A stretch of DNA of 64,000 nucleotides from Candidatus Helarchaeota archaeon (lineage in GTDB: Archaea > Asgardarchaeota > Lokiarchaeia > Helarchaeales > RDOG01): positions 186,001-250,000 of the forward strand of contig JAHPZH010000005.1 in the NCBI GenBank assembly GCA_019058315.1, written 5' to 3'. A program made the position numbers and the translations under genes. The number at the start of each line of letters is the position of its first letter. The first letter of the stretch is position 1. This document shows positions 12,059-33,805 of this stretch, piece by piece. The notes below the pieces were generated by a model. It was not told where the DNA came from and searched no databases. It was given only the letters and a program-made list of their open reading frames with translations.

Positions 12059-12694
12059 GTGGACTTTATGACATTAAAAAATATTATAGATATACTAATT
12101 AATCTGAAAATTGAAGAAATCGAAAATGCTGTTATGTCTGAGTTAGATAATGATACAAATGTCCAAGATATTATGAATGCCCTTACTCAAGGAATGTATT
12201 CAGTAGGAGAATTATACGAGAAGCGGGAGTTTTACCTTTCAGAATTAGTCGTGGCAGCAGAAATGATTAAGATGGCAATGAAAATTCTGGAACCACATTT
12301 AAATTCAGTTGTAAAAGGTCATGGGAAAAAAATCGTTGTCACAACCGTTAGAGGTGATACTCATGATATCGGTAAAAATATTCTAATAAATATGTTAAAA
12401 TCTAGCGGTTTTGATGTTATCGACTTGGGGGTAGATTGTCCTGCGGAGAAAATTGTTAATGCGATAAAAAAATCAGGGGCGATGGTTCTCGCATTAAGCT
12501 CACTTCTTACTATGTCAATGGAAGAAATTTCAGTCGTTGATAAAGCTCTAAAAGATGAAGGTCTTCGGGATCAAGTTAAAATTATTGTAGGAGGAGCACC
12601 CTTAAATTTAAAATTCGCAAAAAAATTAGGCGCAGATGCTTATGCTGAAGATGCTGTTAGCGGTGTAAGAAAAATTATGGAATTATTCGATTAA
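12059..12694 (+). CDS. methyltransferase corrinoid protein (MtaC/MttC type)
   Basis: A 211-residue cobalamin-binding protein. The N-terminal 85 residues form the helical cap domain; the Rossmann domain follows with the base-off His motif D100-T-H102-D-I-G (VRGDTHDIGKN) and the later S-x-L and GG motifs (ALSSLLTMS, IIVGGAPL) that cradle the nucleotide tail. It carries the methyl group as methyl-Co(III). The start is GTG immediately after the UroD stop. It is the last gene of the SCP2-like/UroD/corrinoid operon. No RamA-type reductive activator is present in the window. A decayed copy of its 3' half lies about 1.1 kb downstream (13807-13958). Confidence 0.88.
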   Translation: MDFMTLKNIIDILINLKIEEIENAVMSELDNDTNVQDIMNALTQGMYSVGELYEKREFYLSELVVAAEMIKMAMKILEPHLNSVVKGHGKKIVVTTVRGDTHDIGKNILINMLKSSGFDVIDLGVDCPAEKIVNAIKKSGAMVLALSSLLTMSMEEISVVDKALKDEGLRDQVKIIVGGAPLNLKFAKKLGADAYAEDAVSGVRKIMELFD

Positions 12695-14154: not shown

Positions 14155-14169
14155 GGAGATGAATTTTTG
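14155..14169 (+). promoter_or_regulatory. ribosome-binding site deciding a TTG start
   Basis: GGAG at 14155-14158 is 8 bases before TTG 14167. The paralogues at 29106 (GGAG, 8 bases, ATG) and 32495 (GGAG, 8 bases, GTG) have the same arrangement and begin at the same residue of the alignment, so the TTG is preferred over the upstream ATG at 14140. Confidence 0.6.
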
Positions 14170-15483
14170 CAATTAGAGGCTTTAGATGATTCAGAATTGA
14201 AACCAAAGAGGACAATTGTAGAAGCTTATAAAAGTATTCCTGATCATGTTTATACAAAGAAGTGGATTCCACTCATACCTCATATGCTTTGGTCATTGCA
14301 ATTTGTAGAGTATGATGATTTTGAACGTGACTTAAGAGATGGTATATCAGAAAGGGCAGGCCAAGCTATGGCTAATCGTATGGAGGAATTTAATGTGGAA
14401 GATTTTGATACTTCTTTTTTAACTTCTGCTGCTGATAATATAAAAAGAAAATCAGAAACAATGATTCCATGGGGTTTCCCGCCCAATATGACAATACGGG
14501 CAGATCTACACTCATCCAGTAGCATCATGATATATGGGCCCTCACACGATATTAGTTTCTGCGGTATCAATGATATAACTCGGGAAATCGAGTTTGCGTT
14601 CAATATTCACATGGAAAACGGAACCCCAGAAGATAGATGGTGGATCGCTGGTGATGATGAATTATTTAAAAGGAGACATATGAAATTAGGATATAAATTA
14701 AAAGAAATGCCTCAAAAATTCGACCATATTTCTGAGTCTGCTGCTAGGGTTCGGGATATAATGATGGATATTCGTAATGAGCGAACCCCTCAATATGCTC
14801 ATGCTTCCTATAGTGTGTGTTTTGTATTCATTGCTGTTGGGATCATAACACCTATTTCTAATTACGACGCATTAGGTCAACTTTGGGATGGCGTCAATGC
14901 TGAAAACATCTATGGTCTACCGCACCCCCTCTTCGGTTATGAGCCTTGGCCCTCTATGCTCAACACTATGTTTGGTCTTTCTCGCAAGGACTGGTGCATA
15001 GCATTATCAAGAATGTTATCTGGTAACTTACTTTACATGCAACCGTTTGGTACAGACATAATGAAAGAATTAAGATCACGGGCTCCAGAACAGTTTGATC
15101 GTATGTTAATAATGCTAAGCTATCAATTAAAGAAGCTTGGCATACCCCTACCCTCTCAAACGGCGAATGTTATCCCTCCAGAATATGATCCGGTAAGGGG
15201 GGAATGGAAGACTTTAGAATTTAAATATCCGCCTGGTCCTCGAGTATTTTATGAAGACTTAGATTTGAGCTTCGATGAAGCGACTCAGGGTGTGCTTTTT
15301 AATATAAATCATAAATCTAAAATCGATAAAGTCACTCGAGACCACATAATTTCAATAGGGCTGGGAGAAAATACAAAATACTTAAAACCCGAGGGTTGGA
15401 TGGAAGAGGAAAAGCGTAAAAGAAGAGCCAAGAAAAAAGTTAAGAAAATCCGAAAGGTCATAAAATATAAAAAGACACCCTAA
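14167..15483 (+). CDS. DSELKPKRT-family protein, paralogue 1
   Basis: A 438-residue soluble protein of an unrecognised family with five members in this window. Conserved blocks: LEALDDSELKPKRT at the N-terminus; IRADLHSSSSIMIYGPSHD from about residue 110; HMENGTPEDRWW from 148; RRHMKLGYKLKEMP from 169; VRDIMMDIRNERTPQYA around 200; YEPWPSMLNTMF near 260; a late FDEATQGVLFNINHKSK block; and a tail with 15 Lys/Arg in the last 26 residues. The His, Asp and Arg residues in invariant positions suggest an enzyme, but no catalytic motif is known to me. Unlike the others it has RWW and YSVC in common with the divergent member 8158-9351. Its promoter has the TTGTAGA operator. It converges with a small zinc-ribbon gene. 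Confidence 0.75.
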   Translation: MQLEALDDSELKPKRTIVEAYKSIPDHVYTKKWIPLIPHMLWSLQFVEYDDFERDLRDGISERAGQAMANRMEEFNVEDFDTSFLTSAADNIKRKSETMIPWGFPPNMTIRADLHSSSSIMIYGPSHDISFCGINDITREIEFAFNIHMENGTPEDRWWIAGDDELFKRRHMKLGYKLKEMPQKFDHISESAARVRDIMMDIRNERTPQYAHASYSVCFVFIAVGIITPISNYDALGQLWDGVNAENIYGLPHPLFGYEPWPSMLNTMFGLSRKDWCIALSRMLSGNLLYMQPFGTDIMKELRSRAPEQFDRMLIMLSYQLKKLGIPLPSQTANVIPPEYDPVRGEWKTLEFKYPPGPRVFYEDLDLSFDEATQGVLFNINHKSKIDKVTRDHIISIGLGENTKYLKPEGWMEEEKRKRRAKKKVKKIRKVIKYKKTP

Positions 15484-15522
15484 ATTTAAAAAAGATATCT
15501 CAACACATAGATTGGGTGGGAC

Positions 15523-15729
15523 TTACCTACATTTAATAATAGATTTTGAAATTTCAGGATAAAAAGCTTTATAACAATCTTTACAAAGATAAATTGGAAA
15601 TTTAAAACCATTAATTTTGAGAATTCCAGACTTTTTTATTTTTTTTGAACTGCAACAAGGACATAAAATTGGGGTTTTTTTATAATTAGGATCAGCATTT
15701 ATGTCGGAAATCAAACTGGAATTTGACAT
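15523..15729 (-). CDS. small zinc-ribbon protein
   Basis: A 68-residue protein with a Cys4 ribbon (CPCCSSKKIKKSG and, 20 residues on, CKDCYKAFYPE). The pattern CPxC-x-S-K-x-I-x-K-x-G ... C-K-x-C-x-x-x-F resembles the N-terminal zinc ribbons of InsA-like IS proteins and stand-alone archaeal DNA-binding ribbons. No transposase is nearby, so it is more likely a small regulator. A TATA-like stretch at 15753-15762 lies upstream on the minus strand. Confidence 0.6.
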   Translation of the reverse strand: MSNSSLISDINADPNYKKTPILCPCCSSKKIKKSGILKINGFKFPIYLCKDCYKAFYPEISKSIIKCR

Positions 15730-16053
15730 AATTCATTCCAAATTATTGATAGTATATAAATATTGTCATTACGATTATTTCAATTGAAAAAAATTGTCAA
15801 ATAATACGTAAAAAAAATTGATTTTGCGCCTAAATTTAGAAAATCAGCTTAAAATTGAAATAGACTCAAAAATATAGAAAGTTAATTACTATACTCAAAA
15901 ACCACAAAAATAATTTGCAATTCTAAAATTCGTGTAACTAATTTTAAGGTACTTACTTTTCCTAGTTCAATACTTTTAAATATTTACTCAAAAATATGAT
16001 TATAAGCTTAATTATATATAATTATGTAATAAAATACAGAAGGATAATAGAAT
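15730..16053. other. intergenic region, divergent promoters only
   Basis: 324 bases of AT-rich DNA between the zinc-ribbon gene and the surface-protein gene. Apart from TATA-like sequences near each end (about 15753 for the minus gene, 16012-16027 for the plus gene) no ORF, RNA gene or repeat was seen. Confidence 0.5.
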
Positions 16054-17643
16054 TTGAGAGAAAAATACATAATTTTGACTCTAGCTCTCTTTCTCATAAC
16101 AAGTTGTGTAGCTGTCAACTTACTCCAGAACACCAATATTGTGAGAATCCAAACTATTAATAACTCAGACCTCAGAATTTCCTCACACATCGTATTGCAA
16201 CCAAATGGAATTGCATTGATCGATGAAGTAAATGATCAAACAAGTATGCGAATTTGTACAGACGGTGCAGGAGGTGCTATCATAACTTGGCAAGATGATA
16301 GAGCTGGACTGGGAACTGGAGATGTATACGCTCAAAGATTTAATTCGACACATACTTACTGGACAACAAATGGGACCTTAGTTTGTAATGAAGAGAATCA
16401 ACAAGATTTCATAAGAATTATAAGTGACGGAAATAATGGAGCAATTATAGCTTGGAGAGACCAAAGAGGGGGATCACAACATTGCTATGCACAAAAAATC
16501 GATTCTGCTGGGAATAGTCAATGGACGGATAATGGAACTGCAGTGTGTATAAACCAAGCTATACTAACTAACCCACAAATGTGTGTAGATGGAGATGGTG
16601 GAGTAATTATTGTATGGAATGATGATCGTAATGGAAATCGCGATCTTTTTGCACAACGTATAAATTCAACTGGACAAGCAAATTGGACAGCAAATGGAGT
16701 TGATATCTGTAATGCAACAGGTGAGCAATCGGCCGTAGATATAATTCCAGATGGAAGTGGCGGAGCAATAATTGCTTGGAGCGACCGAAGAATGGGAGTC
16801 CTAGATTACGATATATATATCCAAAGAATCAATTCAACGGGACATATACAGTGGGCTAATAATGGAACCCCTATTTGTACAGCAGATAATCGACAATTTA
16901 CTCCGAATATATGTACTGATGGAGGAACTGGCGCAATCATAGCTTGGTATGATGAAAGAGATATCGAACGTGATGTTTATGTCCAAAAGATCGATTCAAA
17001 TGGCGTCCCTCAATGGGAAGCAAATGGTACATGTATCTCTAACATGACTGGTGATCAAACAAATACTAAAATGATATCGGATGGGCTCGGAGGTGCAATA
17101 ATCGTTTGGGAGGATACTAGAGGCGCTAATCAAGATATATATGCACAACGAATAAATGGAACTGGACATACACAGTGGACGAGTAATGGTACATTAATTG
17201 TTAGTGCAAGTGATGTTCAAGATAATATTGATCTATGTTCCAATGGTGCTAATGGAGCATTTATCGTTTGGGAAGATTCAAGGGGTGCATCTAATTCACA
17301 AATATGGGGGCAATTGATTTCTATGGATGGCACACTTATATGGTCAACTAGTGGAGCTCCCATCTGCACAGCTGGCGGAGAAAGTAGATATCCTAAAATA
17401 TGTAACAATGGAAGTACTGGAGCTATTGTTGCTTGGATTGACAGTAGAGGTGCTGACATAGATATCTATGTACAAATGTTAACAAATGATACTTATATGC
17501 CCTCAGTTGGAGGTACTAACCTGTTAGGAATGCTTTTATTGGGGATGCAACAACCATCAGACATAATTTTGCCAGTTGTAATAATAGTAATCGTGGTAGC
17601 TGTTGTAATTGTTATAGTAGTGTTCTATAGACAAAAAAAATAA
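16054..17643 (+). CDS. secreted beta-propeller-like repeat protein with C-terminal membrane anchor
   Basis: A 529-residue protein. It starts with a signal-peptide-like segment (KYIILTLALFLITSCVAVNLL), contains eight repeats of about 55 residues and ends in a single TM segment (ILPVVIIVIVVAVVIVIVV) plus a short basic tail (YRQKK). Each repeat has the form NGT-x-x-C, about 15 residues, C/I-x-D-G-x-G-G-A-I-I-x-W-x-D-x-R, then D-I-Y-x-Q-R-I-N-S-x-G-x-x-x-W. Eight such units suggest an eight-bladed propeller facing outside the cell, with two Cys in many blades that may pair. TTG start with GAAGG upstream. It is a paralogue of 53159-55177. Ligand unknown. Confidence 0.75.
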   Translation: MREKYIILTLALFLITSCVAVNLLQNTNIVRIQTINNSDLRISSHIVLQPNGIALIDEVNDQTSMRICTDGAGGAIITWQDDRAGLGTGDVYAQRFNSTHTYWTTNGTLVCNEENQQDFIRIISDGNNGAIIAWRDQRGGSQHCYAQKIDSAGNSQWTDNGTAVCINQAILTNPQMCVDGDGGVIIVWNDDRNGNRDLFAQRINSTGQANWTANGVDICNATGEQSAVDIIPDGSGGAIIAWSDRRMGVLDYDIYIQRINSTGHIQWANNGTPICTADNRQFTPNICTDGGTGAIIAWYDERDIERDVYVQKIDSNGVPQWEANGTCISNMTGDQTNTKMISDGLGGAIIVWEDTRGANQDIYAQRINGTGHTQWTSNGTLIVSASDVQDNIDLCSNGANGAFIVWEDSRGASNSQIWGQLISMDGTLIWSTSGAPICTAGGESRYPKICNNGSTGAIVAWIDSRGADIDIYVQMLTNDTYMPSVGGTNLLGMLLLGMQQPSDIILPVVIIVIVVAVVIVIVVFYRQKK

Positions 17644-17644
17644 C

Positions 17645-17661
17645 TTTTTTTCCTTTTTTTT
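17645..17661 (+). terminator. T-rich terminator
   Basis: Two T tracts (T7 at 17645-17651 and T8 at 17654-17661, split by CC) directly follow the stop of the surface-protein gene, as expected for archaeal U-tract termination. Confidence 0.5.
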
Positions 17662-17738
17662 GATCAGAATAACTTTAAAAATTAATATTGAAGAAAGTAA
17701 GATCGAACCAAGGTCTAAATCTCTTAACAATTTTATAT

Positions 17739-19457
17739 TTACATCAATCTTTCGCGTACTAATATAACTATAATAAAACAAACGAGTGACATAACGCCAT
17801 ACAATCCAATCATCATAGATAAACCAAGGAGAGATCCATCTGTTGTTAGGCCGTAAAGGTATCCTATAAGGATAAATGAAGCGAAAGCAATAAGATAGAG
17901 ATAATATTTTTCGTAATATCTTTTACCGTGAGTTTCCTCCGCCTTTTTCGTATAAACCTCAGTAACAACGATTTCTTCTAATTCTCTACCTTTACTTTCT
18001 GGAGATAGGAGGTGGATTGTAAAAGCTGCAGTTAGTATAGCTAATAGCATCAAAAAAAACATATATTGATAAGAGAGGTTCAGTCCACCGACTTGTTCAG
18101 CCCCAAACATCAAGAAAAAAGGGACAAGTATAACGGCACCTCGTTGCACGGCGTTTATCCAACCCATGGCAGTGCTTCTAATATGAGTTGGTAACATTTC
18201 TAAAGGAATTAATATCGTTCCAGAACTTATCAATACCAGAGAAAAAACACCTATGGATCCACCAATTACCGAAAGAGTTTGAAGGATAACATCGGGTTCA
18301 CCAGCGATAAAAATCGCAGGAAAAGCATAAAAAATACTCCCAATGATGAGCAGATAGTTAAAGAGCCTAATAACAGGTAACCTGCCGTAGCGGTCAAATA
18401 AAGGACCTGCAAAGACCGCCCCAAGACCCGCTGATCCCGCAATTGGCATCGTAAGAAACCCAATTAATTCCTGAGACATCTTAAGTTCGCGTGCAAAATA
18501 GAGGCCAAAAAAGGTTATTTGACCGAAATATACTAACTGAATTAAAAAGCCTGCAACGCACCCTAATATCATAGGTCTGGCAAATTTCTTTTGTAGGGGA
18601 ACAAACCAGCCAGTTTTTTGCTGTAATCCTCTTTTTTTTCGCCATTGTTCATATTGTTTCATGGCTTTGAACCGTTTAGTTTCTTTTAAGAAGAAGAAGA
18701 GAGGAATTATAAAGATAATGCCTACGATATTTAAGAAGTAAAGCGATTGCCAGTTTGACATATATGTCCCTCCGGGTAAGGGAACCTTTATACCTAACAT
18801 CTGGATTAATCCACAAGCCATTCCACCAAAAGCTGTCATACTTAACACAACCCCTACTAGTCTCCCTCGTAAATGATCGGGGGCTTCTTCTGCCATGATT
18901 ATAACAACAATATCCCCAGATAGAAAAAAGTTAGCAAATAATCGAAAGATTAGAAAATAACCCAGCCCATTGGGACCTGGCGGAGATAATGAGGTCAGGA
19001 CTGCGAATGATATAAAACCTATTGCAGTAAAAATTGTTAATGGTCTGCGTCCAAACTTGTCAACCAAATATTTAAAAGAAACTGCAAGAACAACCCCAAT
19101 TCCTGCAAAACTCAATATCATTCCAAGCACAAGAGGACTGTCTGAAACTCCAAAATAGGAAAATAAATCGGGATCTTGTGCAATCAATTGCTGAAAGAAA
19201 CGAAGTAGACGGGATTGTCCAAATCCAGAAATAGCCAACATGATGGCAATTGTTCCCCAACCGTCGAAAAATGTAACTATATTGGCGAATATAAGGACAA
19301 ACCAAAGATACTTTGTCATTTTTGTAGGAAATCCTGCTTCTGCTTTCTTTTTATCGCGGATTTTCTTGCGTTCTTCCTTAGATAATTTCTTAGAGACTTC
19401 AATGTTAGATTTTTCAACTTCTTCCTTAGAGTTCAACTCTAGATTTCTTTCTGCCAT
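17739..19457 (-). CDS. MFS sugar-porter-like transporter, paralogue A
   Basis: 572 residues. A charged N-terminal tail (KKLSKEERKKIRDKKKAE) precedes the first TM. Sugar-porter motifs: VDKFGRRPLT after TM2, EEAPDHLRGRLVG after TM4, LFDRYGRLPVIR in the second half, PTHIRSTAMGW, and PESKGRELEEI (PETKG motif) after TM12. After that motif two further hydrophobic segments follow, giving about 14 TM. It is the most downstream of four tandem minus-strand paralogues, each with 70-150 bases of its own upstream DNA. The external loop here is short (PLPGGTYMSNWQSLYF). Substrate is unknown; sugars or other polyols/acids are possible. Confidence 0.82.
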   Translation of the reverse strand: MAERNLELNSKEEVEKSNIEVSKKLSKEERKKIRDKKKAEAGFPTKMTKYLWFVLIFANIVTFFDGWGTIAIMLAISGFGQSRLLRFFQQLIAQDPDLFSYFGVSDSPLVLGMILSFAGIGVVLAVSFKYLVDKFGRRPLTIFTAIGFISFAVLTSLSPPGPNGLGYFLIFRLFANFFLSGDIVVIIMAEEAPDHLRGRLVGVVLSMTAFGGMACGLIQMLGIKVPLPGGTYMSNWQSLYFLNIVGIIFIIPLFFFLKETKRFKAMKQYEQWRKKRGLQQKTGWFVPLQKKFARPMILGCVAGFLIQLVYFGQITFFGLYFARELKMSQELIGFLTMPIAGSAGLGAVFAGPLFDRYGRLPVIRLFNYLLIIGSIFYAFPAIFIAGEPDVILQTLSVIGGSIGVFSLVLISSGTILIPLEMLPTHIRSTAMGWINAVQRGAVILVPFFLMFGAEQVGGLNLSYQYMFFLMLLAILTAAFTIHLLSPESKGRELEEIVVTEVYTKKAEETHGKRYYEKYYLYLIAFASFILIGYLYGLTTDGSLLGLSMMIGLYGVMSLVCFIIVILVRERLM

Positions 19458-19560
19458 CCCAAACCTACCTCTTAATATTAAATGAATCTTGTGAAATATA
19501 ATTAATGTCTATATAATTTTATTTATAGAAACGAGAAATAGGGGTTTGAAAAAAAATATG

Positions 19561-21294
19561 CTACATAATTTTTTCTCGCACATAGTAGATTAATAAGAAA
19601 GCAATGAATGACAACAGAGAATAAAATGCAACCATATAAGCTACATTAGGGAGAGGTACATTAGTGGTCTGTCCATAAAGAAAACCAAGACCAATAAATG
19701 CGCAGATGGAGATTAAGTATAGGTGATATTTTTCTTTATATTTTTCATCACGGGCTTTTTCTTTTTTAGTATAGACCTCTGTTGACACTATTTCTTCTAG
19801 CGTTCTGCCTTTACTTTCAGGAGCAAGGATATATATTGTAAAGATCGCTGTCAAGAAAGCTATAAACTGAAGGACGAACATAAACTGATATGAAAGTCCT
19901 AAACCTCCCAATTCTTCTGCACCGAACATTATAAGGAATGGAGCAAGGACCATAGCACCTCTAGTTATTGCGTTTACCCAACCCATGGCTGTGCTTCGGA
20001 TATGAGTTGGAATCATCTCTAATGGTATTATCATACCGCCAGCACTTACAATAACAAGACCAAAGACACCTATCATTCCACCCATTACAACAAGAGCTTG
20101 TAAGAGTGGGTTAGGTATGTCAGCAACAACAAAAACTGTAGGAAATGAAAATAAAGTACCTCCAACGAAAGTAACATAACTAAAGATTCTTACCGTTTTG
20201 ATCCTTCCCCAACGATCCATCAAAGGACCAGCTAAAAATGCGGCAATTCCTCCAGTTGCAACAATTGGAACAGATACAAGCCCTATTAATTCCTGGGACA
20301 TTTTTAATTCTTTGGCGAAATAAAGTCCGAAAAATGTTACTTGAGCAAAAAAGACTAATTGGAGTAAAAAGCCTGCTAAACAACCCAATAACATTGGACG
20401 TGCATACTTCTTTTTTAGGGGAGTAAACCATCCTACTTTTGAATCTAAACCTTTTTTCTTACGCCAATCCTCATACCTTTTCATAGCCTTAAATCTTTTA
20501 GTTTCTTTTAAGAGAAAAAACATTGGAACTATAAAAGCAAATCCGATAATGTTCAAAAAATAAAGGGATTGCCATACCGTCATAGTTGATCCCCACGCAA
20601 AATCAAATCCCCAAGGATTGGGAATTGGAGCTCTAATCTTAAGTGTCTGAATTACTCCGCAAGCTACACCTCCGAAAGAGCTCATTGCAACTACTATACC
20701 GATTAAACGACCTCTTAAATGGTCTGGAGCTTCTTCAGCTATTATAATCACTACAATATCTCCAGAGAGAAAGTAATTTGCTACCAATCGGACTATCAGA
20801 AAATAAATCAAGCCGCCAGGACCGGGGGGAGAGAATGCAGTTAAAACTGCAAAAACCACGAATCCAACGGCAGTAATAAGGGTTAAAGGCCTTCGACCAT
20901 ATTTATCAACTAAAAATTTAAAAGATACTGCAAGTATTACTCCAGAACCTGCAATACTAAGAATCATTCCTAAGACAATAGGACTGTTTGAAACACCAAA
21001 ATATGTAAATAAATCCGGGTTTCCTATCTGCTGGAGGGAGCGGAGAATATTAGTTTCTCCAAACCCCGACATCGCTAGCATAATTGCTATCGTACCCCAA
21101 CCGTCGAAAAAAGACACAATATTTGCAAAAATAAGGACAAACCAAAGATATCTTGTCATCTTACTAGGAATGCTTGTTTCTGCTTTTCTTTTTTCACGAA
21201 TTTTTCTGCGTTCTTCTTTTGAAAGTTTTTTGGGAGTTATATCACTGGTTTCTTCCGATTCAATACTGAAGTTAGGCTCTTTAATTTCTTCCAT
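19561..21294 (-). CDS. MFS sugar-porter-like transporter, paralogue B
   Basis: About 577 residues. It has the same motif order as its neighbours (VDKYGRRPLT, EEAPDHLRGRLIG, LMDRWGRIKTVR, PTHIRSTAMGW, PESKGRTLEEI) and the two extra C-terminal TM segments. It has an insertion in an external loop (PIPNPWGFDFAWGSTMTVWQ) shared only with paralogue D. The ATG at 21294 is chosen because GGAG lies 9 bases before it; an in-frame ATG at 21309 has no ribosome-binding site. A 16-bp palindrome lies 61-76 bases upstream (21355-21370). Confidence 0.82.
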   Translation of the reverse strand: MEEIKEPNFSIESEETSDITPKKLSKEERRKIREKRKAETSIPSKMTRYLWFVLIFANIVSFFDGWGTIAIMLAMSGFGETNILRSLQQIGNPDLFTYFGVSNSPIVLGMILSIAGSGVILAVSFKFLVDKYGRRPLTLITAVGFVVFAVLTAFSPPGPGGLIYFLIVRLVANYFLSGDIVVIIIAEEAPDHLRGRLIGIVVAMSSFGGVACGVIQTLKIRAPIPNPWGFDFAWGSTMTVWQSLYFLNIIGFAFIVPMFFLLKETKRFKAMKRYEDWRKKKGLDSKVGWFTPLKKKYARPMLLGCLAGFLLQLVFFAQVTFFGLYFAKELKMSQELIGLVSVPIVATGGIAAFLAGPLMDRWGRIKTVRIFSYVTFVGGTLFSFPTVFVVADIPNPLLQALVVMGGMIGVFGLVIVSAGGMIIPLEMIPTHIRSTAMGWVNAITRGAMVLAPFLIMFGAEELGGLGLSYQFMFVLQFIAFLTAIFTIYILAPESKGRTLEEIVSTEVYTKKEKARDEKYKEKYHLYLISICAFIGLGFLYGQTTNVPLPNVAYMVAFYSLLSFIAFLLIYYVREKIM

Positions 21295-21354
21295 TATTTT
21301 GAACTCCATAATATCATATTCAAAATACCCTCAAAAAATGCTGAATCTTTATTG

Positions 21355-21370
21355 ATTTTTCATGAAAAAT
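21355..21370. promoter_or_regulatory. palindrome upstream of MFS paralogue B
   Basis: ATTTTTCATGAAAAAT is a perfect 16-bp palindrome 61 bases before the chosen start. In DNA this AT-rich a few such palindromes are expected by chance, so it is only a weak operator candidate. Confidence 0.25.
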
Positions 21371-21399
21371 GATTAGTAACAATCCAATTTTTTCCTTTA

Positions 21400-21432
21400 A
21401 AGAGAAATTTCTCTTAAATAACCCAAATGGGT
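21400..21432 (-). terminator. double hairpin after MFS paralogue C
   Basis: Downstream of the stop at 21456, reading on the minus strand, ACCCATTTGGGT (21421-21432) and then AAGAGAAATTTCTCTT (21400-21415) can each fold back on themselves. They may terminate the transcript of paralogue C or shield the promoter of paralogue B. Confidence 0.35.
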
Positions 21433-21455
21433 AAGAATTTTGAAAGATTAATTCT

Positions 21456-23174
21456 TTACATAAATTTTTTTCTGACTATAAATACAACTAAAATCCCGAT
21501 GACTGAAAGTAGAGTATAGAATCCAAGCATTATCATCATATTGAAAATAGGTGCACCGCTGGTTTGATAGTAGAGGAAACATAAAGCCACGAATGAAGAG
21601 ATATAAATTGTCCAATATAGATATGGTTTATTATCTATCTTTTTTACTTCTTCTTTTCTCTCAGCATAGACTTCAGTAGCAACTATCTCTTCTAGATCTC
21701 TACCTTTAGTTTCTGGAGCTAACATTAAAACTACATAGATTGCGGTAAAGAAAATCATATCCATAAAAATGAACATAAACTGATAAGATAAACCTAAACC
21801 ACCCAATGTTTCCGCCCCGAACATCATTAAGAACGGTGTTAGTATCATTGCTCCCCGAGTTACGGAACTAGTCCAACCCATGGCTGTACTTCGAATATGT
21901 GTCGGCATCATTTCTAAAGGAAGTAGTGTTACTCCAGTAGTTACTATATATAGACCCAACGCACCCAAACAATCACCTAATACAACAATTGCTTGTAGAA
22001 CTGGGTTTGGTATATCTCCAAGAACAAATACACCAGGAACAGAAATTAAGGTACCTCCAACGAGAGTGATCATAGAAAAGAATTTAATAGTCGGCAATCT
22101 TCCGAAGCGATCCATTAAAGGTCCAGCAGTAAGTGTACCAGCTCCAGCAGATATCATAATTGGAAGTGTAACTAGCCCAATTAATTTTGGAGACATTTTC
22201 ATTTGTTTAGCGAGATAATAACCAAAAAATGTTACTTGAGCATATGTGATGACCATAACCAAAAATCCCGCTATCATACCTAATGCCATTGGACGTAGAT
22301 ATTTCCTTTGTAAGGGTACACTCCATCCAGTCTTTGCTTTTAATCCTCTTTTCTTTCGCCATTCTTCATATTTTTGCATGGCTTTAAACCGCTTAGTTTC
22401 TTTTAAGAAGAAGAAAAGAGGAATTATTAATATGAAGCCTATAATATTCATAAAGTATAAGCTCTGCCAGACGGTCAAATAAGCTCCAAAAATACGAACT
22501 CTTATCCCAAATAGCTGCATTATACCACATGCAAATCCTCCCAAATTACTCAATGCCATTACGATTCCTGTTAGACGCCCCCTTAAGTGGTCTGGAGATT
22601 CCTCCGCCATTATTATAACTACTACATCTGCGGAAAGAAAATAATTTGCTAACATTCTGACAATTAAAAAATAGATTAATCCCGGTGAACCAGGGGGAGA
22701 AAATGCAGTTAGAAAAGCAAATGTCATAAATGCAACAGCAGTGACAAGAGTTAGAGGTCTGCGACCAAATTTATCAACCAAAAATTTAAAAGAAACTGCA
22801 GCAACAACTCCTATCCCTGCGATACTGAGAATTATACCCATTACAACGGGTTGGTTTGAAATATTAAAATATGTGAAAAGATCAAAATCCCCTGTAATAA
22901 ATTGGCGAAAAGCATTTTGAAGATTAAGAGGACTCCCCCAACCGCTCATGGCTAGCATAATAGCAGTTGTGCCCCATCCATCAAAGAAGGAAACAATATT
23001 TGAGAATATTAGTAGAAACCATAAATATCCAGTCATCTTGGTTGGAAACCCTGACTCCGCTTTCTTTTTTTCGCGGATTTTTCTACGTTCTTCTCTTGAT
23101 AAATTATTGGAAATCTCTTCTTTTACCTTTTTTGCTTCAACCTCAGACGAGGGATTTTCAAAGTTTTCTTCCAT
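21456..23174 (-). CDS. MFS sugar-porter-like transporter, paralogue C
   Basis: About 572 residues. Charged N-terminus (LSREERRKIREKKKAES), motifs VDKFGRRPLT, EESPDHLRGRLTG, LMDRFGRLPTIK, PTHIRSTAMGW and PETKGRDLEEI, then two extra TM segments. It shares the short external loop with paralogue A (RIFGAYLTVWQSLYF). It differs from the others in the exact PETKG motif rather than PESKG, and in SADVVVIIMAEE at TM4. The ATG at 23174 has GGGAG 8 bases upstream; the longer TTG reading from 23189 is less likely. Part of a four-gene tandem expansion. Confidence 0.82.
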   Translation of the reverse strand: MEENFENPSSEVEAKKVKEEISNNLSREERRKIREKKKAESGFPTKMTGYLWFLLIFSNIVSFFDGWGTTAIMLAMSGWGSPLNLQNAFRQFITGDFDLFTYFNISNQPVVMGIILSIAGIGVVAAVSFKFLVDKFGRRPLTLVTAVAFMTFAFLTAFSPPGSPGLIYFLIVRMLANYFLSADVVVIIMAEESPDHLRGRLTGIVMALSNLGGFACGIMQLFGIRVRIFGAYLTVWQSLYFMNIIGFILIIPLFFFLKETKRFKAMQKYEEWRKKRGLKAKTGWSVPLQRKYLRPMALGMIAGFLVMVITYAQVTFFGYYLAKQMKMSPKLIGLVTLPIMISAGAGTLTAGPLMDRFGRLPTIKFFSMITLVGGTLISVPGVFVLGDIPNPVLQAIVVLGDCLGALGLYIVTTGVTLLPLEMMPTHIRSTAMGWTSSVTRGAMILTPFLMMFGAETLGGLGLSYQFMFIFMDMIFFTAIYVVLMLAPETKGRDLEEIVATEVYAERKEEVKKIDNKPYLYWTIYISSFVALCFLYYQTSGAPIFNMMIMLGFYTLLSVIGILVVFIVRKKFM

Positions 23175-23259
23175 CTCCAAAACTCCCAAAAAAATTAGTA
23201 ATATATTATTTACAATATCCTTTATTTATACTTGATCTAATTCAAAAATTTTGATAAAT

Positions 23260-24996
23260 TCACATATAATGCTTTTTTATATAATAAACGAGAATAAAAC
23301 CAGCAAGAGATAGTATAGTATAAAATCCAAGCATTATTATCATATTACCAAGAGTTGCCTTAGTGGTCTGGACGTATAAGAATGATAATAGCATAAATGA
23401 AGCGATATATATTAAATATAATATGTATGACTCCTTTTTCATCTCTTTGTGAATTTTCTCTCTTCCGGCATAAACTTCGGTTGCAACAATTTCTTCTAAT
23501 GCTCTTCCCTTGCTTTCCGGTGCGAGCATATAGATCACGTAAACTGCCGTAAAAAAAATCATATCCATAAAAATAAACATGAAATGGTAGGTAAGTCCTA
23601 ATCCTCCTACTTCTTCTGCCCCAAACATCATTAAGAAGGGTGTTAATATCATTGCTCCTCTAGTTATAGCGCTAATCCACCCCATTGCAGTGCTTCTAAT
23701 GTGAGTTGGGAACATTTCCACAGGAAGTATCATCACTCCAGCAACTGTAATCACAAGACCAAAAATACCGAGGCAATCTCCAACAACTACTATGGCTTGC
23801 AAAACGGGATTTGGAATGTCTCCGACGACGAAAACAGCGGGAGCTGATATTAGGGTACCTCCAAGGAGAGTAATATAAGAGGCAATTCGAATGGTGGGCA
23901 ACCTTCCCCAACGATCCATAAAACTACCAACCAGCATAATTCCGAGAGCTGCGGCTAGCAAGATTGGAAGAGTAACTATCCCAAGTAATTCTTGGGACAT
24001 CTTCATTTGCTTAGTTAAATAAAGTCCAAAAAACATTACTTGCGCAGAATAAATGACTTGAAATAAAAACCCTCCAAGCATACCGAGTGCCATTGGACGG
24101 AGATATCTCTTTTGTAGAGGGGCAAACCAGGTGGTTTTTGGCTTTAATCCTTTTTTTACTCGCCAATCTTCATACTTTTTCATAGCTTCAAACCGTTTTG
24201 TCTCTTTTAACCAGAAGAATAGCGGAATTATAAGAACGAATCCTATAATATTGATGAAATAGAGACTTTGCCACACACTCATGGACCCTAACCAATTTAA
24301 ACTAAAACCCCATGGATTTGGAATAGGAACTCTTATCTTTAACGTCTGAATTATTCCACAAGCGAATCCGCCTATAGAGCTCATTCCCATGACGACACCC
24401 ATTAAACGGGCTCTTAAATGGTCCGGAGATTCTTCTGCGATAATTATCACGACGACATCACCTGATAGGAAATAATTTGCCAATATTCGGAAAATAAGAA
24501 AAAATAGTAGACCCTCTGGACCGGGAGGAGAAAATGAAGTAGCTAGTGCACATAAAAGAAATGCAATCGCAGTATAAAGGGTAAGTGGGCGGCGTCCGAA
24601 TTTGTCTACTAGATATTTAAAAGAAACTGCAGCGACGACTCCCGTTCCGGCAATACTTAAGACTATCCCCATAATGACGGGGGTGTTTGAAAGACCGAAA
24701 TACGTGAAAAGGTCAGGGTTACCAATTTGTTGAAAATTTCGGAGGAGATTGGTCTGCCCCCAGCCAGCCATTGCGAGCATGATAGCGATAGAACCCCAGC
24801 CATCGAAGAATGAAACTATATTTGCGAAGATAAGTACAAACCATAAGTATCCAGTCATTTTGATTGGAAATCCAGACCTTGCTCTTCTTTCTTCCCGTCT
24901 TTTCTTCCTTTCTGGGCTAATTGGTTTTTTAATAGTATTTTTACCGGCTTCTATTATCTCCTTTTTAGAATCCGGCTTATTACTTATTTCAACCAT
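23260..24996 (-). CDS. MFS sugar-porter-like transporter, paralogue D
   Basis: 578 residues, the most upstream of the four tandem transporters. Motifs: VDKFGRRPLT, EESPDHLRARLMG, FMDRWGRLPTIR, PTHIRSTAMGW, PESKGRALEEI, then two additional TM segments. It carries the long external loop (PIPNPWGFSLNWLGSMSVWQ) also found in paralogue B, suggesting that B/D and A/C form two sub-types or that the array grew by duplication of pairs. GC content is visibly higher than in neighbouring hypothetical genes. It is divergent from the seven-TM/longin gene at 25150. Confidence 0.82.
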   Translation of the reverse strand: MVEISNKPDSKKEIIEAGKNTIKKPISPERKKRREERRARSGFPIKMTGYLWFVLIFANIVSFFDGWGSIAIMLAMAGWGQTNLLRNFQQIGNPDLFTYFGLSNTPVIMGIVLSIAGTGVVAAVSFKYLVDKFGRRPLTLYTAIAFLLCALATSFSPPGPEGLLFFLIFRILANYFLSGDVVVIIIAEESPDHLRARLMGVVMGMSSIGGFACGIIQTLKIRVPIPNPWGFSLNWLGSMSVWQSLYFINIIGFVLIIPLFFWLKETKRFEAMKKYEDWRVKKGLKPKTTWFAPLQKRYLRPMALGMLGGFLFQVIYSAQVMFFGLYLTKQMKMSQELLGIVTLPILLAAALGIMLVGSFMDRWGRLPTIRIASYITLLGGTLISAPAVFVVGDIPNPVLQAIVVVGDCLGIFGLVITVAGVMILPVEMFPTHIRSTAMGWISAITRGAMILTPFLMMFGAEEVGGLGLTYHFMFIFMDMIFFTAVYVIYMLAPESKGRALEEIVATEVYAGREKIHKEMKKESYILYLIYIASFMLLSFLYVQTTKATLGNMIIMLGFYTILSLAGFILVYYIKKHYM

Positions 24997-25149
24997 CCCA
25001 AAGTTGTTATTTAAATTCTAATGAAAAACAAAATTATGCTTTATTGTATAGCAAATCACCTTTATAAAATGCATATTCATATTAGATATAATTTTAAAAT
25101 TTCAAATGTAAGATAAATCTTTGAAGTATTGTGTTATAATTATTAAAAA

Positions 25150-26232: not shown

Positions 26233-26263
26233 ATAATAAATTTTTTGAGATAAAATACCTTTT

Positions 26264-27655: not shown

Positions 27656-27807
27656 TATGTATCACATGCTATTGATTAAGCTGATTCTATAATTACTCAA
27701 ATTTACAAATAATATAAAATTCTAGTTGTTGACATTAGCAATATTAAATTCGTTAGTAAAAACCGAAAAAAAATAATAATAATTAAAAATATGTTTTATT
27801 GGAACAG

Positions 27808-29106
27808 TTACTTATTTTTAAATTTAATGACTTTCCTAATTTTCTTTACTTTTTTCTGCAGCCTTCTTTTTTTCTTCATTTCTTCTGCCCAACCCTCTGG
27901 TTTGAGGTATTTTGTATCTAAGCCATGTCCGATCGAAATTATATGGTCCCTTGTGACCTTCTCTATCTTGCTTCTGTGCGTAATATTGAATAATAAACCG
28001 GAAATTGCTTCGTCGAATGAAAGATCCAAATCTTGATAAAACACCCTTGGACCAGCTGGATATTTCCACTCCACGCTTTTCCACTCTCCTTTTTCAGGAT
28101 CATATTCTGGAGGAATACAATCCATGGTCTGTCTAGGTAATGGGACCCCTAATACCTTCAGGCGATAGCTCATATTACGCAAATTGCGATAAAATTCATC
28201 AGGATAGTTTTTCTTTCCAAATTCGATAATATCCTTATTGACGTGCTGCATATATAATTGATTCATGCTAAGCATTCTAGATATACTTTGGCACCATTGT
28301 GCACGTGTTAAAGCGAACATAGTGTTTAACATAGGAGGCCAAGGCTCATAGAGGAATAAGGAATGAGGTAAATTATATTTATTTTGTGCGTTTACTCCAT
28401 CATATGTCTGTCCTATTGCATCCCAATTCGAAAAGCTCTTAGCACCACCAACCATCATAAAAAATAATGCCACTTGATAAGAGGAATCTGCCCATTGGGG
28501 ATTTCTTTCATTCCTTAAATCGAGCATTATATCCCGAACTCTCGATGCTGCCACCGCTAAATCGTTAATTCTTTTAGGAATCTCCTTTAATCTATATCCT
28601 AGCTTCATATGCCTCCTTTCAAGGAATTCATCGTTTGGCATCATAAACCAGTAGTCTACTGGATAGCCCTCCTCCATATGAATATTAAAGGCGAGCTTTA
28701 TCTCTCTAGTAATATCGTTCACGCCGAGAAAACTAATGTCATGCGATGGTCCATATATCATAACCGAGCTGGATGAGTGAAGATCTGCTCTAATAGTAAG
28801 ATTCGGGGGATAACCCCAATATACCATAGTTTCGGACTTTCTCTTGATTTTTCCTTCTTCTAATGCTTTTTCTAGCTCGAACCCATCCTCCATTCGCTGA
28901 TTGAAAAAGCGTGCTTGACTCTCATCAAACCTTTCGGTCACTAACTTAGAATAATCCCTCCAATCTTCGAACTGGAGATCGTATAAGGTTAGTGGAGCTA
29001 ACGGCGTCCACTTTTTAGTATAAACTTCATCGGGGATGGTCTTATACGCTTCGGTAATTGTGCGTTTCGGTTTCAATTCAGAATCTTCAACGGCCTCTAA
29101 TTGCAT
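27808..29106 (-). CDS. DSELKPKRT-family protein, paralogue 2
   Basis: 432 residues. It has all family blocks: LEAVEDSELKPKRT, IRADLHSSSSVMIYGPSHD, HMEEGYPVDYWFM, RRHMKLGYRLKEIP, VRDIMLDLRNERNPQWA, YEPWPPMLNTMFAL, WCQSISRMLSMNQLYMQHV, FDEAISGLLFNITHRSK and a Lys/Arg-rich tail (KKKRRLQKKVKKIRKVIK). The ATG at 29106 has GGAG 8 bases upstream and starts at the same residue as the paralogues; a longer reading from 29127 lacks a ribosome-binding site. It lies 69 bases downstream of paralogue 3, so the two are likely co-transcribed. Function unknown; cytoplasmic. Confidence 0.75.
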   Translation of the reverse strand: MQLEAVEDSELKPKRTITEAYKTIPDEVYTKKWTPLAPLTLYDLQFEDWRDYSKLVTERFDESQARFFNQRMEDGFELEKALEEGKIKRKSETMVYWGYPPNLTIRADLHSSSSVMIYGPSHDISFLGVNDITREIKLAFNIHMEEGYPVDYWFMMPNDEFLERRHMKLGYRLKEIPKRINDLAVAASRVRDIMLDLRNERNPQWADSSYQVALFFMMVGGAKSFSNWDAIGQTYDGVNAQNKYNLPHSLFLYEPWPPMLNTMFALTRAQWCQSISRMLSMNQLYMQHVNKDIIEFGKKNYPDEFYRNLRNMSYRLKVLGVPLPRQTMDCIPPEYDPEKGEWKSVEWKYPAGPRVFYQDLDLSFDEAISGLLFNITHRSKIEKVTRDHIISIGHGLDTKYLKPEGWAEEMKKKRRLQKKVKKIRKVIKFKNK

Positions 29107-29175
29107 TAGCATATCTCCTATATTCATTAAAAGGATGATAATAAAAAATTTTGAAATAGTGATTATTTTACAAAA

Positions 29176-30477
29176 TCATGAAGATTTTTTATATTTTATT
29201 ATTTTCTTTATTTTTTTAACCTTTCTTCGTAATCGCTTTTTTTTCTTTTGTTCTTCTATCCAACCTTCAGGTTTTAGGTATTTTGTATCAAAACCATGAC
29301 CGATAGAAATAATATCATCATGTGTTACTTTCTCTACTTTCGATTTATGCGTAATATTAAAAAGGACACCCGAAATAGCTTCATCAAAGGTTAATCCGAG
29401 ATCTTCATAGAATATTAGGGGCCCCTTTGGATATTTAAAGTCAATTGATTGCCACTCACCAATATTTGGATCATACTTTGGCAATTCACATTCCAAAGTC
29501 TGTTTAGGGAGAGGAACGCCGAGAACTTTTAATTGATAGCTATAATTGAGTAATTGCCGTAAATATTCATCATAATAATGCTTTTTTCCATGTTCTAGTA
29601 CATCCTTGTCCACATGTTGCATATATAACTGGTTCATGCTAAGCATTCGAGATAGAGAAACACACCATTGGTCTCTTTTAAGTGCGAAAAAGGTGTTGAG
29701 CATTGGAGGCCACGGTTCATAGAGGAATAACGAGTGAGGTAATTGATACATGTTCCTCGCATTCACTCCATCATAAATTTGACCGATGGCATCCCAATTT
29801 GAAAATTTCGTGATCCCACCGATCATGATGAAAAATAGAGCGACTTGGTAGCTACTGGCTGCCCATTGCGGATTTCGTTCATTTCTGATATCCATCATAA
29901 TATCTCTAACCCTACTGGCAGCAAGAGCGAGATCATCGAACTTTTGTGGCATTTCCTTTAATTTATAACCTAGCTTCATATGCCTTTTTTCAAGTGCTTC
30001 GTCATCAGGAAGCATTATCCAATAGTCAGTAGGATATCCATCCTCCATATGCAGCGTGAAGCCGAATCTAATCTCTCTGGTAATATCGTTTACTCCTAGA
30101 AATGAGATATCGTGCGATGGACCATAGATCATTACCGAACTTGAGGAATGGAGGTCTGCTCTTATCGTTAAATTAGGTGGATAGCCCCAATAAACCATAG
30201 TTTCAGCCTTACGCTTAATTTTTCCAAGATCCAGGGCTTCATTAAGCGATAAACTGTTTTTCATTCGTTCATCGAATAGCCTGGCTTCATTCTCATCCAT
30301 ACGTTCCGCTGCGAGCACTCTGTAGTCCGACCAATCATAAAACTGTAAATTGTAGAGTACGGTCGGAGAAAGTGGAGCCCACCTTTTGGAATAGACATCT
30401 TCAGGAATACTTTTATATGCTTCAGTATATGTTCGCTTCGGTTTTAACTCCGAATCATCTAAAGCTTCTATTAACAA
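29176..30477 (-). CDS. DSELKPKRT-family protein, paralogue 3
   Basis: 433 residues, very close to paralogue 2 (for example ADLHSSSSVMIYGPSHDISF and the SRMLSMNQLYMQHVDKD block are almost unchanged). The start at TTG 30477 is preferred: GGGG lies 9 bases upstream, and the protein then begins at the family's common N-terminus (LIEALDDSELKPKRT). The basic tail (KKKKRLRRKVKKIKKIIK) is kept. It is the first gene of the two-gene tandem with 27808-29106. About 250 bases of AT-rich DNA separate it from the M28 peptidase gene; I see no shared operator there. Confidence 0.75.
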   Translation of the reverse strand: MLIEALDDSELKPKRTYTEAYKSIPEDVYSKRWAPLSPTVLYNLQFYDWSDYRVLAAERMDENEARLFDERMKNSLSLNEALDLGKIKRKAETMVYWGYPPNLTIRADLHSSSSVMIYGPSHDISFLGVNDITREIRFGFTLHMEDGYPTDYWIMLPDDEALEKRHMKLGYKLKEMPQKFDDLALAASRVRDIMMDIRNERNPQWAASSYQVALFFIMIGGITKFSNWDAIGQIYDGVNARNMYQLPHSLFLYEPWPPMLNTFFALKRDQWCVSLSRMLSMNQLYMQHVDKDVLEHGKKHYYDEYLRQLLNYSYQLKVLGVPLPKQTLECELPKYDPNIGEWQSIDFKYPKGPLIFYEDLGLTFDEAISGVLFNITHKSKVEKVTHDDIISIGHGFDTKYLKPEGWIEEQKKKKRLRRKVKKIKKIIKYKKSS

Positions 30478-30734
30478 ATTCTTTCGCCCCAATTTATTTT
30501 AATATTAATAAAATTTTGAATATTTTACAAATAATAAAATCTAGAATTTAAAATTTTAGTTAGTATTAGGAAATTATAACTTTAAAAAATTGTCCAAATT
30601 GTAACATTAGCTATATCAAATATTAGATATTATTTTTAAAACTCAATTTAAGGTATTTTTGATTATGTAAGAAAAAAAAGCTTTGGATTTGGAACTTTAT
30701 CGAAAATATACTGGAATCAAATATTGATTGATGG

Positions 30735-32294
30735 TTAGAATTCATCTTTTGGTAGTAGCATTAATTTCCCTACAAGATCTGTGATTGCTTTAGCAGTTGA
30801 TCCTAATTTTTCTACATCAATTTTATCCAGAGTGTCTTTAGCAGTAAGTAAATAATAGGGTGATCTAATCCAATGAATTACATTAATCCCACTTTGAGCA
30901 ACCAAATGTCCTGCTTCCCCGATCGGCATCGTCCCGAAAAAATTATCAGGAATGAGGATTAGTTTTTCTAGGGGATGGTCTTGGCACATTTTAATCATAG
31001 TAGAAACCAAAGATATTTTCCTCGAAATAAATATGACACCGATAGCCAGCTCATCTTTTAAACTAAAATCATGTGTAACGGGGTCTTCCGAAACATCTTT
31101 CGCACATAAATGTTCTAAATTAACATCAACAAGGACCTTCTTTAATAAATTATTCCTTTGTTTTCTAGCGAATGTTTCTGCACCAATTCCAGCGTATAAA
31201 TGCCCTGCAGTAATTAGGAATAGGATACTCCTAGGTCTTTCTGAACGTGGAATTTTAGACCAAGCAGCTAGTTGTGCAAGGACCATTGCAACACCCGTGC
31301 CATCTTCAGATGCTCCTTTGAACGCGGAATCGTGATGAGTTGAAATCATAATCATATCATCTGATTTACCAGGAAGTATACCATAAATATTGTGAGCCGT
31401 ACCAGGATTTTGTTCTCCCTCTAGTATTATAGTTCCTGTCGCATTGTCTGATCTCGCTATTTTTCGTAGTTGCATTCCATCATATTTACCAACATAGAGA
31501 CCAGGAATGGGTTTCATTACCCCATCATAAGGTCCCCAATGACTGTTTGTATTTGACGGATGATCCTTTAATATTAAAATTATGCCAACAGCACCATGGT
31601 CAACTGCCTGCCAATATATTGATTCTTTATTAGGTTTAGCACCAATGGACTGTGGTGGAAAATTTAATCGTGCAAAAGTTAGGATGGTTTTTGAATTTTC
31701 ATCAATTTCATTATTAGGATCAGAAACATAATAACTATCAAAAGCTTTGGTTAACATTCCATAAGGAAAGGTTGGAAATTCAATATCTCCAACTACTATT
31801 TTCCCTTTAACATCAATTTTTTCAAATTTTTTTGGTTTACCTTTACCTACATAAACAAGGGGTGCAGTGATGCCTGTAGATCCGGTGAATCCCGAATTTA
31901 GAACATAAAAACAGGGCATTTCGATTTGTTTTTCACCAGTTGAAACAATTAATTTCCAATTGGACGCATTCCAAAGGGTTATTTTTAATGGTTCTTTGGT
32001 TATGTTTTCTAAACCAGCATCATGAAATTTATGTGCAATAAAATCTTCAATTAAATGTGCTTCGGGAGTTCCTATCCGACGATGAGGAGGTTCACAAATT
32101 TTTTGTAAAAGTGAGTTTACCTCTTGTGAATCGGGAGTTGACACGGAATAAGGAAAATCTTGAATATTTTTTATTTTTTCCAGAGCATTTTCCTTCATTT
32201 TTGTAATATATGGAAGGATCTTTTGTAAATGTAATAAAAAATTGTCAATTGTAATGTTAAATTCGGGTGTAGGTTCGAGAGTCTCATTACTCAT
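30735..32294 (-). CDS. M28-family metallopeptidase with PA domain
   Basis: 519 residues. The middle carries a protease-associated insertion (about 150-300), and the C-terminal half the M28 metal site: MISTHHDSAFKGASEDGTGVAMVLAQL, giving His, Asp and the bridging Asp, followed by NLEHLCAKD with a candidate Glu ligand. No signal peptide is visible, so it would be a cytoplasmic aminopeptidase-like enzyme, unlike many secreted M28 peptidases. In the M28 family the catalytic Glu-Glu pair usually precedes the second ligand; here the H-L-Y-A-G-I-G-A-E-T-F segment could supply one. It lies between DSELKPKRT paralogues 3 and 4; any functional link is unproven. Confidence 0.75.
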   Translation of the reverse strand: MSNETLEPTPEFNITIDNFLLHLQKILPYITKMKENALEKIKNIQDFPYSVSTPDSQEVNSLLQKICEPPHRRIGTPEAHLIEDFIAHKFHDAGLENITKEPLKITLWNASNWKLIVSTGEKQIEMPCFYVLNSGFTGSTGITAPLVYVGKGKPKKFEKIDVKGKIVVGDIEFPTFPYGMLTKAFDSYYVSDPNNEIDENSKTILTFARLNFPPQSIGAKPNKESIYWQAVDHGAVGIILILKDHPSNTNSHWGPYDGVMKPIPGLYVGKYDGMQLRKIARSDNATGTIILEGEQNPGTAHNIYGILPGKSDDMIMISTHHDSAFKGASEDGTGVAMVLAQLAAWSKIPRSERPRSILFLITAGHLYAGIGAETFARKQRNNLLKKVLVDVNLEHLCAKDVSEDPVTHDFSLKDELAIGVIFISRKISLVSTMIKMCQDHPLEKLILIPDNFFGTMPIGEAGHLVAQSGINVIHWIRSPYYLLTAKDTLDKIDVEKLGSTAKAITDLVGKLMLLPKDEF

Positions 32295-32494
32295 AATTTT
32301 TTCGCCAAAATTTATATTGATTAGTTATTTCGAATTGTTATTATTAAAAACTATTTATGTTCTTATTTAGATTAAAAAACCATTATATTTTTTACATACC
32401 AAATTTAATTTAATAAATTTACAAAAATATTAAATATTTGATTTTTTGAAGCTTATATGGTAATTATAATATCATTTTATAAGGAGATAGAGTC

Positions 32495-33805
32495 GTGATA
32501 CTAGAACCGTTAGATGATTCTGAATTAAAACCGAAACGGACTATGACTGAAGCGTATAAAAGCATTCCCGATCACATTTATACTAAGAAATGGACCCCTC
32601 TTGCACCTACAGTTCTGTGGAATCTCCAATTTTATGATTGGGGTGAATATGAGGGGTTGGTTTCTGGAAGATATGATGAGCATTTAGCTCGTTTATTTAG
32701 GAAACGCATGGATGACGGAATGGAGTTAGATAGAATGTTAGATGAGGGCGAAATCAAGCGAAAGTCGGAGACCATGGTCTACTGGGGCTATCCTCCCAAC
32801 CTCACTATCCGGGCAGACCTTCATTCATCTAGCTCTGTGATGATATACGGACCATCGCATGATATTTGTTTTTGTGGTATAAATGATATAACCCGTGAAG
32901 TCCGCCTCGCTTATAATATTCACATGGAAGAAGGATATCCCACAGAATTTTGGTTCATGTTCCCTGATGACGAAGCTCTTGATAGGCGTCACATGAAGTT
33001 GGGTTACAAGTTAAGAGAGATGCCTAAGCGATATAATGACCTTCCAATTGCAGCATCGAAGATCCGCGATATAATGATGGATATTCGCAACGAAAGAACT
33101 CCGCAATATGCACTTTCTTCTTTTCAAATCTCCGTATTTTATCTCATGGTCGGAGGTGTTACTAAGTTTTCAAACTGGGATGCACTTGGGCAAATATATG
33201 ATGGAGTCAACGCTAAAAATGTGTATGAACTACCGCATTATATGTTTGGATATGAACCATGGCCCCCAATGCTTAATACTTTCTTCGCACTTGATAGAGA
33301 CCAGTGGTGCATTTCGCTTTCTCGCATGCTTAGCATGAATCAACTTTACATGCAACATGTGGATAAAGAATCGTTGGAGATTATCAAAAAGAACTATCCC
33401 GAGGAATTTAAACGAAATCAACTAACTTACAGCTATCAACTAAAAAAGATTGGAGTACCCCTTCCCCAACAGACGATGAAATGTATTCCACCTAAATTTA
33501 ACCCGACAACTGGCGAATGGGAAAGTTTAGAATTCCAATATCCAGAGGGTTTGCGTATTTTCTACGATGACCCCGCTCTCGATTTAAGTTTTGATGAAGC
33601 GACATCGGGTGTTCTGTTTAATCTAACTCATAAAACAAAGAATTTAGAGAAGGTCACAAAGGATCACGTTATCAGCATTGGACATGGTCTGAACACAAGG
33701 TATCTTAAACCGGAAGGGTGGATTGAAGAAGAGAAGAGAAAGAAAAGACGTCTAAGAAAAGTTAAGAAAGTTAGGAAATTAATAAAGTATAAAAAGACCG
33801 CATAA
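32495..33805 (+). CDS. DSELKPKRT-family protein, paralogue 4
   Basis: 436 residues, starting at GTG 32495 with AAGGAG 8 bases upstream, and so beginning directly at ILEPLDDSELKPKRT. It contains the invariant blocks IRADLHSSSSVMIYGPSHD, NIHMEEGYPTEFWFM, RRHMKLGYKLREMP, IRDIMMDIRNERTPQYA, YEPWPPMLNTFFAL and FDEATSGVLFNLTHKTK, and ends with a basic tail (KRKKRRLRKVKKVRKLIK). The region between the two last blocks carries a two-residue insertion (DPALDLSF). It stands alone on the plus strand. Codon use is more GC-rich than that of neighbouring hypothetical genes. Confidence 0.75.
   Translation: MILEPLDDSELKPKRTMTEAYKSIPDHIYTKKWTPLAPTVLWNLQFYDWGEYEGLVSGRYDEHLARLFRKRMDDGMELDRMLDEGEIKRKSETMVYWGYPPNLTIRADLHSSSSVMIYGPSHDICFCGINDITREVRLAYNIHMEEGYPTEFWFMFPDDEALDRRHMKLGYKLREMPKRYNDLPIAASKIRDIMMDIRNERTPQYALSSFQISVFYLMVGGVTKFSNWDALGQIYDGVNAKNVYELPHYMFGYEPWPPMLNTFFALDRDQWCISLSRMLSMNQLYMQHVDKESLEIIKKNYPEEFKRNQLTYSYQLKKIGVPLPQQTMKCIPPKFNPTTGEWESLEFQYPEGLRIFYDDPALDLSFDEATSGVLFNLTHKTKNLEKVTKDHVISIGHGLNTRYLKPEGWIEEEKRKKRRLRKVKKVRKLIKYKKTA

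Follow-up and report, generated by a model that had tools for sequence, protein, structure and literature searches.

A protein family linked to long-form alkyl-coenzyme M reductase genes and expanded in Helarchaea

Helarchaeal genomes encode a large protein family that is undescribed and has no known relatives in Pfam, NCBIfam or the PDB. The family most likely serves long-form alkyl-coenzyme M reductase (ACR) systems as a dedicated component and has radiated in Helarchaea. Its association with ACR can be stated with high confidence, because the family co-occurs with ACR genes, lies adjacent to them, is restricted to one ACR clade and has a tree that agrees with that of McrA. This link is the main point of the present analysis; it was absent from the first-pass annotation, which had described five paralogues in a stretch of 64,000 nucleotides from a Helarchaeota contig (the window). 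The five genes are as follows.

8158-9351, minus strand: family member of the untailed core type, 397 aa; no Pfam or NCBIfam match; sequence used for an AlphaFold2 model
14167-15483, plus strand: member of the basic-tail subclade, 438 aa from a TTG at 14167; ORF open from 14140; GGAG-8-base site 5' of 14167
27808-29106, minus strand: member of the basic-tail subclade, 432 aa; ORF open to 29127
29176-30477, minus strand: member of the basic-tail subclade, 433 aa; ORF open to 30492; GGGG upstream, not GGAG
32495-33805, plus strand: member of the basic-tail subclade, 436 aa, GTG start

Each of the five ORFs is present and intact, and all are homologous; the other four are 70, 70, 61 and 33% identical to 32495-33805, taken as the reference. 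Their combined length of about 6.4 kb agrees with the figure given earlier. The blocks that they had been said to share are conserved in an alignment of 53 homologues, in which E134, G159, D185, R187, N188, P192 and P246 are invariant and the RRH and RNER motifs near-invariant. There is no invariant or near-invariant Cys in either family alignment. Other details of the first-pass annotation hold in part. The GGAG-8-base ribosome site ascribed to four of the genes is found at the starts at 14167, 29106 and 32495 but not at 30477, and three of the four tailed genes have longer in-frame ORFs, as listed above. The five had been presented as a single five-member family, but in the family tree 8158-9351 falls in a separate untailed subclade, while the other four are tailed.

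The Lys/Arg-rich tails of these four members are real, with a net charge of +13 to +14 over the last 35 residues. However, just eight of the genome's 33 copies carry a basic tail, which is thus a feature of a subclade and not of the family. The tails are also absent from those ACR-adjacent relatives for which they were computed, and the proposal that they give the family a role at the membrane or on nucleic acid is not supported. By contrast, the view that the family matters to this organism is borne out by its copy number: the 5.8-Mb host genome contains 33 copies, of which the window holds five.

The family had been called unrecognised, and searches by profile, by fold and in other Asgard genomes led to no known family; neither a Pfam family with a described function nor a structural match to an enzyme was therefore found. 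No member scored above the curated cut-off of any Pfam or NCBIfam profile, where only sub-threshold chance matches were seen, and sequence and profile searches of the PDB gave no match below E = 0.2. AlphaFold2 models of two distant members were of high confidence (pLDDT 94.5 and 88, pTM 0.92 and 0.87; the pLDDT 94.5 model is that of 8158-9351), and the order of core elements is identical in both: three strands, a helix and a strand. For neither model did Foldseek return a match in the PDB at E <= 0.001. The same order of three strands, helix and strand is found in RNase H-like/ASKHA proteins such as PilM, FtsA, Ppx/GppA and the C-terminal half of UvrC. However, their Foldseek E-values lie above 0.04 and the TM score is about 0.14, and a relationship is not accepted; the RNase H-like/ASKHA topology of these weak best matches to the models is suggestive and may serve as a lead only. 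A literature search found no paper that describes the family.

Where else does the family occur? Scans of other genomes with the family alignment showed that within Asgard archaea it occurs in four Helarchaeal genera only; ACR genes accompany the family in each of the four tested. Five of 228 Asgard genomes were positive, one of them through a fragment (genome G184, E = 3e-4, 75 positions) that was taken as noise. Among named records, relatives are encoded by Hel_GB_A, Hel_GB_B and Meg19 Helarchaeota. Outside Asgard, about ten mcr-bearing genomes of Methanobacteriota were the only ones in which the family was detected, in an extended-profile search restricted to phyla other than Hadarchaeota and Bathyarchaeia. 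A partial sample of Methanobacteriota (394 genomes) contained ten genomes with the family, and mcrA was present in 10/10. In this sample the family occurs in 7/11 genomes that have only a divergent mcrA, versus 3/383 others (p = 1.4e-10). These genomes are mostly fragmented, so some family-ACR links may have been missed. One further record, contig L078, is filed as 'Desulfobacterales CR_Bin_073'; its family member nests inside the Helarchaeal tree, and the contig is probably misbinned.

Every family-positive genome that was found has mcr genes. Genome G001 was considered as a counter-example, since a PF02249 search showed no mcrA, but mcrB, mcrG, mcrA and SCP2-like genes are present. The gene at L226:7693-9459 (G001:C27) encodes a divergent Helarchaeal McrA that PF02249 does not detect, and surveys that use PF02249 alone would undercount ACR genes.

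Family genes adjoin ACR genes and at times lie between mcrG and mcrA; in the functional sense, they share the mcr/acr neighbourhood that marks accessory proteins. A family gene, either a full-motif (type 1) or a short (type 2) member, lies within 6 kb (<=6 kb) of 15/30 mcrA loci, against 1.1 expected (P = 1.6e-15). Two family genes of 'Euryarchaeota CSMAG_2992' (L102), a distant match, are placed within the mcrBG...mcrA operon, and hhalign aligns them with the Helarchaeal profile at E-values of 5e-18 and 2.5e-16. Gene orders at three loci are given here, with FAM for a family gene.

L102: mcrB-mcrG-FAM-122aa-FAM-129aa-mcrA
L027: FAM-FAM-mcrB-mcrG-mcrA
L029: FAM-FAM-mcrA-A2-SCP2like-mcrB-mcrG

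The McrA tree has two clades. Clade A comprises canonical MCRs and shorter ACRs (~554-581 aa), while clade B comprises the long forms (~593-645 aa, and one 337-aa fragment). A full-motif member is found within the same distance (<=6 kb) of 14/17 clade B mcrA genes versus 0/12 in clade A (p = 9e-6), where the clade B rows L159 and L162 are duplicates of loci L183 and L184, at which the family link is seen. No family copy adjoins a further long-form operon that was identified later (G001 L226; McrA of 588 aa). In genome G228, four of five mcrA contigs carry family copies of their own.

The two trees also resemble each other. Patristic distances of family members and McrA are correlated across 13 linked pairs (r = 0.83, p below 1e-4) and within the nine Methanobacteriota pairs (r = 0.94); shared species history contributes to this agreement. 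With midpoint rooting of the family tree, those Helarchaeal copies that adjoin ACR genes diverge close to the base of the radiation in Helarchaea, which suggests that the family arrived with ACR and then expanded.

Several other genes recur in these loci. A protein of 165-199 aa resembling SCP2 and the C-terminal domain of alkyl sulfatases is encoded, in two phyla, either directly downstream of mcrA or at another place in the ACR operon; it is this neighbour, and not the family itself, that resembles such proteins. Pfam assigns SCP2 to 4/10 members and Alkyl_sulf_C to 3/10, with modest scores, and in the PDB it matches SCP2 proteins only. The gene is present in 12/14 family-positive genomes versus 0/4 family-negative genomes with a divergent mcrA. 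The SCP2-like protein might carry alkanes or alkyl-CoM; a literature search found no paper joining a sterol carrier protein with alkyl-coenzyme M. In Methanobacteriota, a small Cys/His-motif protein (CP...C..K...CE.GH...DVP.V) that matched no known family pairs with the family gene. Component A2 and the YcaO that thioamidates McrA also occur in family-ACR loci. The recurrent genes are located as follows.

L027:14590-15096, L029:14898-15395, L170:5077-5616 and L152:6919-7515: SCP2/alkyl-sulfatase-C-like genes
L102:3732-4100 and 5425-5814, L152:4554-4916 and L172:10601-11059: small Cys/His-motif protein, 118-181 aa

What might the family protein do in these systems? The favoured but tentative reading is that it is an enzyme that works on alkyl-CoM or on a product close to it. 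Long-form ACR would turn a long alkane into alkyl-S-CoM, the SCP2-like protein would carry the hydrophobic substrate or product, and the family protein would act on alkyl-CoM or its immediate product. An Arg/His cluster (R153, R154, H155 and R187) might hold the sulfonate, while D112, H132, E134, D185 and E189 might do acid-base or metal chemistry. Type 1 members keep these active-site-like residues, whereas in most or all of the short type-2 members D112, H132, E134, D185 and R187 have been lost. In two genomes, type-2 copies are flanked by methanogenesis marker 8 and component A2; the degenerate copies would be non-catalytic helpers. In Helarchaea, copies from the ACR operon would have duplicated to about 33, which would fit specialisation by chain length, position or derived substrate.

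This enzyme role is favoured because Arg, His and acidic residues are conserved and, in type 2, lost, because a putative alkyl-carrier gene lies nearby and because the family has expanded strongly in Helarchaea. Several points count against it. Most Helarchaeal copies lie away from ACR genes among mixed neighbours, and plain counts of the genes around them yield no dominant partner family, so that their contexts indicate no single substrate. Since no fold was matched, the catalytic chemistry cannot be read from the family. Moreover, the neighbours A2, YcaO and marker 8 fit a role in maturation equally well, and shared species history can also yield the agreement of the trees.

The conversion of alkyl-CoM to acyl-CoA in archaea has been stated to be unknown (PMC6478937, PMC10322722, PMC10811742, PMC9118554). 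The family is a concrete, testable candidate for this step or for ACR function, on the grounds that it shares its occurrence, its location and its diversification with one clade of the ACRs, the nickel enzymes that enable anaerobic attack on oil hydrocarbons by archaea. That the family represents the enzyme class missing at the start of this conversion, with a new fold and chemistry and about 33 substrate-specialised versions in Helarchaea, is rather unlikely. In either case, a large unannotated gene family of Helarchaeal genomes gains a name, and can be used as a genome marker of long-form ACR systems.

For the same step, others have proposed a pair formed by a corrinoid protein and an MtaA-type methyltransferase (PMC10811742). 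In the window, such a pair sits between two family members, as does a third gene whose homologues adjoin two other family copies (L021:2498-3109 and L031:10640-11257).

9739-10332, minus strand: Cys-rich, Zn-ribbon-like protein, 197 aa
10898-12058, plus strand: URO-D/MtaA-like (MtaA/CmuA-like) CoM methyltransferase
12059-12694, plus strand: MtbC-type corrinoid protein

MtaA/MtaC corrinoid:CoM methyltransferase pairs and the family have thus been proposed for the same part of the pathway, but the family is a different one, with neither a URO-D nor a corrinoid domain and no conserved Cys for a set of Cys/His zinc ligands. The Helarchaeal Zn-ribbon neighbours were compared with the Cys/His-motif partner of Methanobacteriota and are not homologous to it.

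The main alternative to an enzyme of alkyl-CoM conversion is that the family helps in the maturation, activation or assembly of long-form ACRs, in a role similar to that of McrC or McrD. It would then act in cofactor insertion, modification or reductive activation, and copies in Helarchaea would later have gained other jobs. This alternative appears somewhat unlikely, although much of the gene order is compatible with it: the location between mcrG and mcrA, the presence of A2 and the McrA-thioamidating YcaO nearby (and, for type 2, of A2 together with marker 8), and the separate copies on most mcrA contigs of G228. In addition, mcrD, and mostly also mcrC, is reported to be missing from the mcr operons of alkane oxidisers (PMC9584954). 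MCR accessory and activation proteins (McrC, McrD, A2 and markers 3/7/8/17) are, like the family, encoded in or beside mcr/acr operons. They differ from it in that the family has no sequence match in NCBIfam, where the Mmp, McrC and McrD models were unmatched, is tied to one ACR clade and has 33 copies in the host genome, against three ACRs. A maturation factor would also be expected beside other ACR and MCR types, which need activation too but lack an adjoining family gene, and the conserved polar residues of the family appear catalytic.

A second alternative, which we regard as improbable, is that the family is a non-catalytic handler of hydrophobic molecules, which together with the SCP2-like carrier would deliver alkanes to ACR or extract alkyl-CoM from it. 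The tight linkage of the SCP2-like gene is consistent with this, as is the report that a hexadecane-degrading Hadarchaeon has an ACR close to its counterparts in Helarchaeales, Methanoliparia and Bathyarchaeia (PMC10811742). However, conserved charged residues would be unusual in a lipid carrier, and the SCP2-like protein itself already suits the role.

Finally, the many dispersed copies and the RNase H-like/ASKHA topology of the best, non-significant Foldseek matches might recall a multicopy mobile-element protein, such as a transposase with an RNase H fold, encoded near ACR genes by chance, but this reading is already disfavoured and scarcely credible, given divergent copies, strong purifying selection, flanks free of repeats and operon positions conserved across two phyla. 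The best pair of copies is just 72% identical in protein sequence (median 37%), the closest pairs have dN of about 0.2 with dS >1.6 or saturated, no flanking 14-mer is common to more than two copies, and neither near-identical copies nor terminal repeats were seen. Thus, the copies are ordinary, functional and long-diverged genes.

Some further features of the neighbourhoods may be recorded. Four tandem MFS transporters lie between family members in the window (17739-24996), and the one that was scanned is TIGR00895-like. A multi-copy family of membrane-protein-like sequences of ~260 aa occurs at L025:3564-6995, at L029:5917-6714 and in the window at 37653-38435; four of its genes stand in tandem between two family members, and the one copy scanned had no Pfam match. 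The gene at L029:6893-8185, which immediately precedes the pair of family genes and the ACR operon of L029, is in our reading 2-hydroxyacyl-CoA-dehydratase D-like, and an HGD-D match occurs in the neighbour tally of the Helarchaeal copies.
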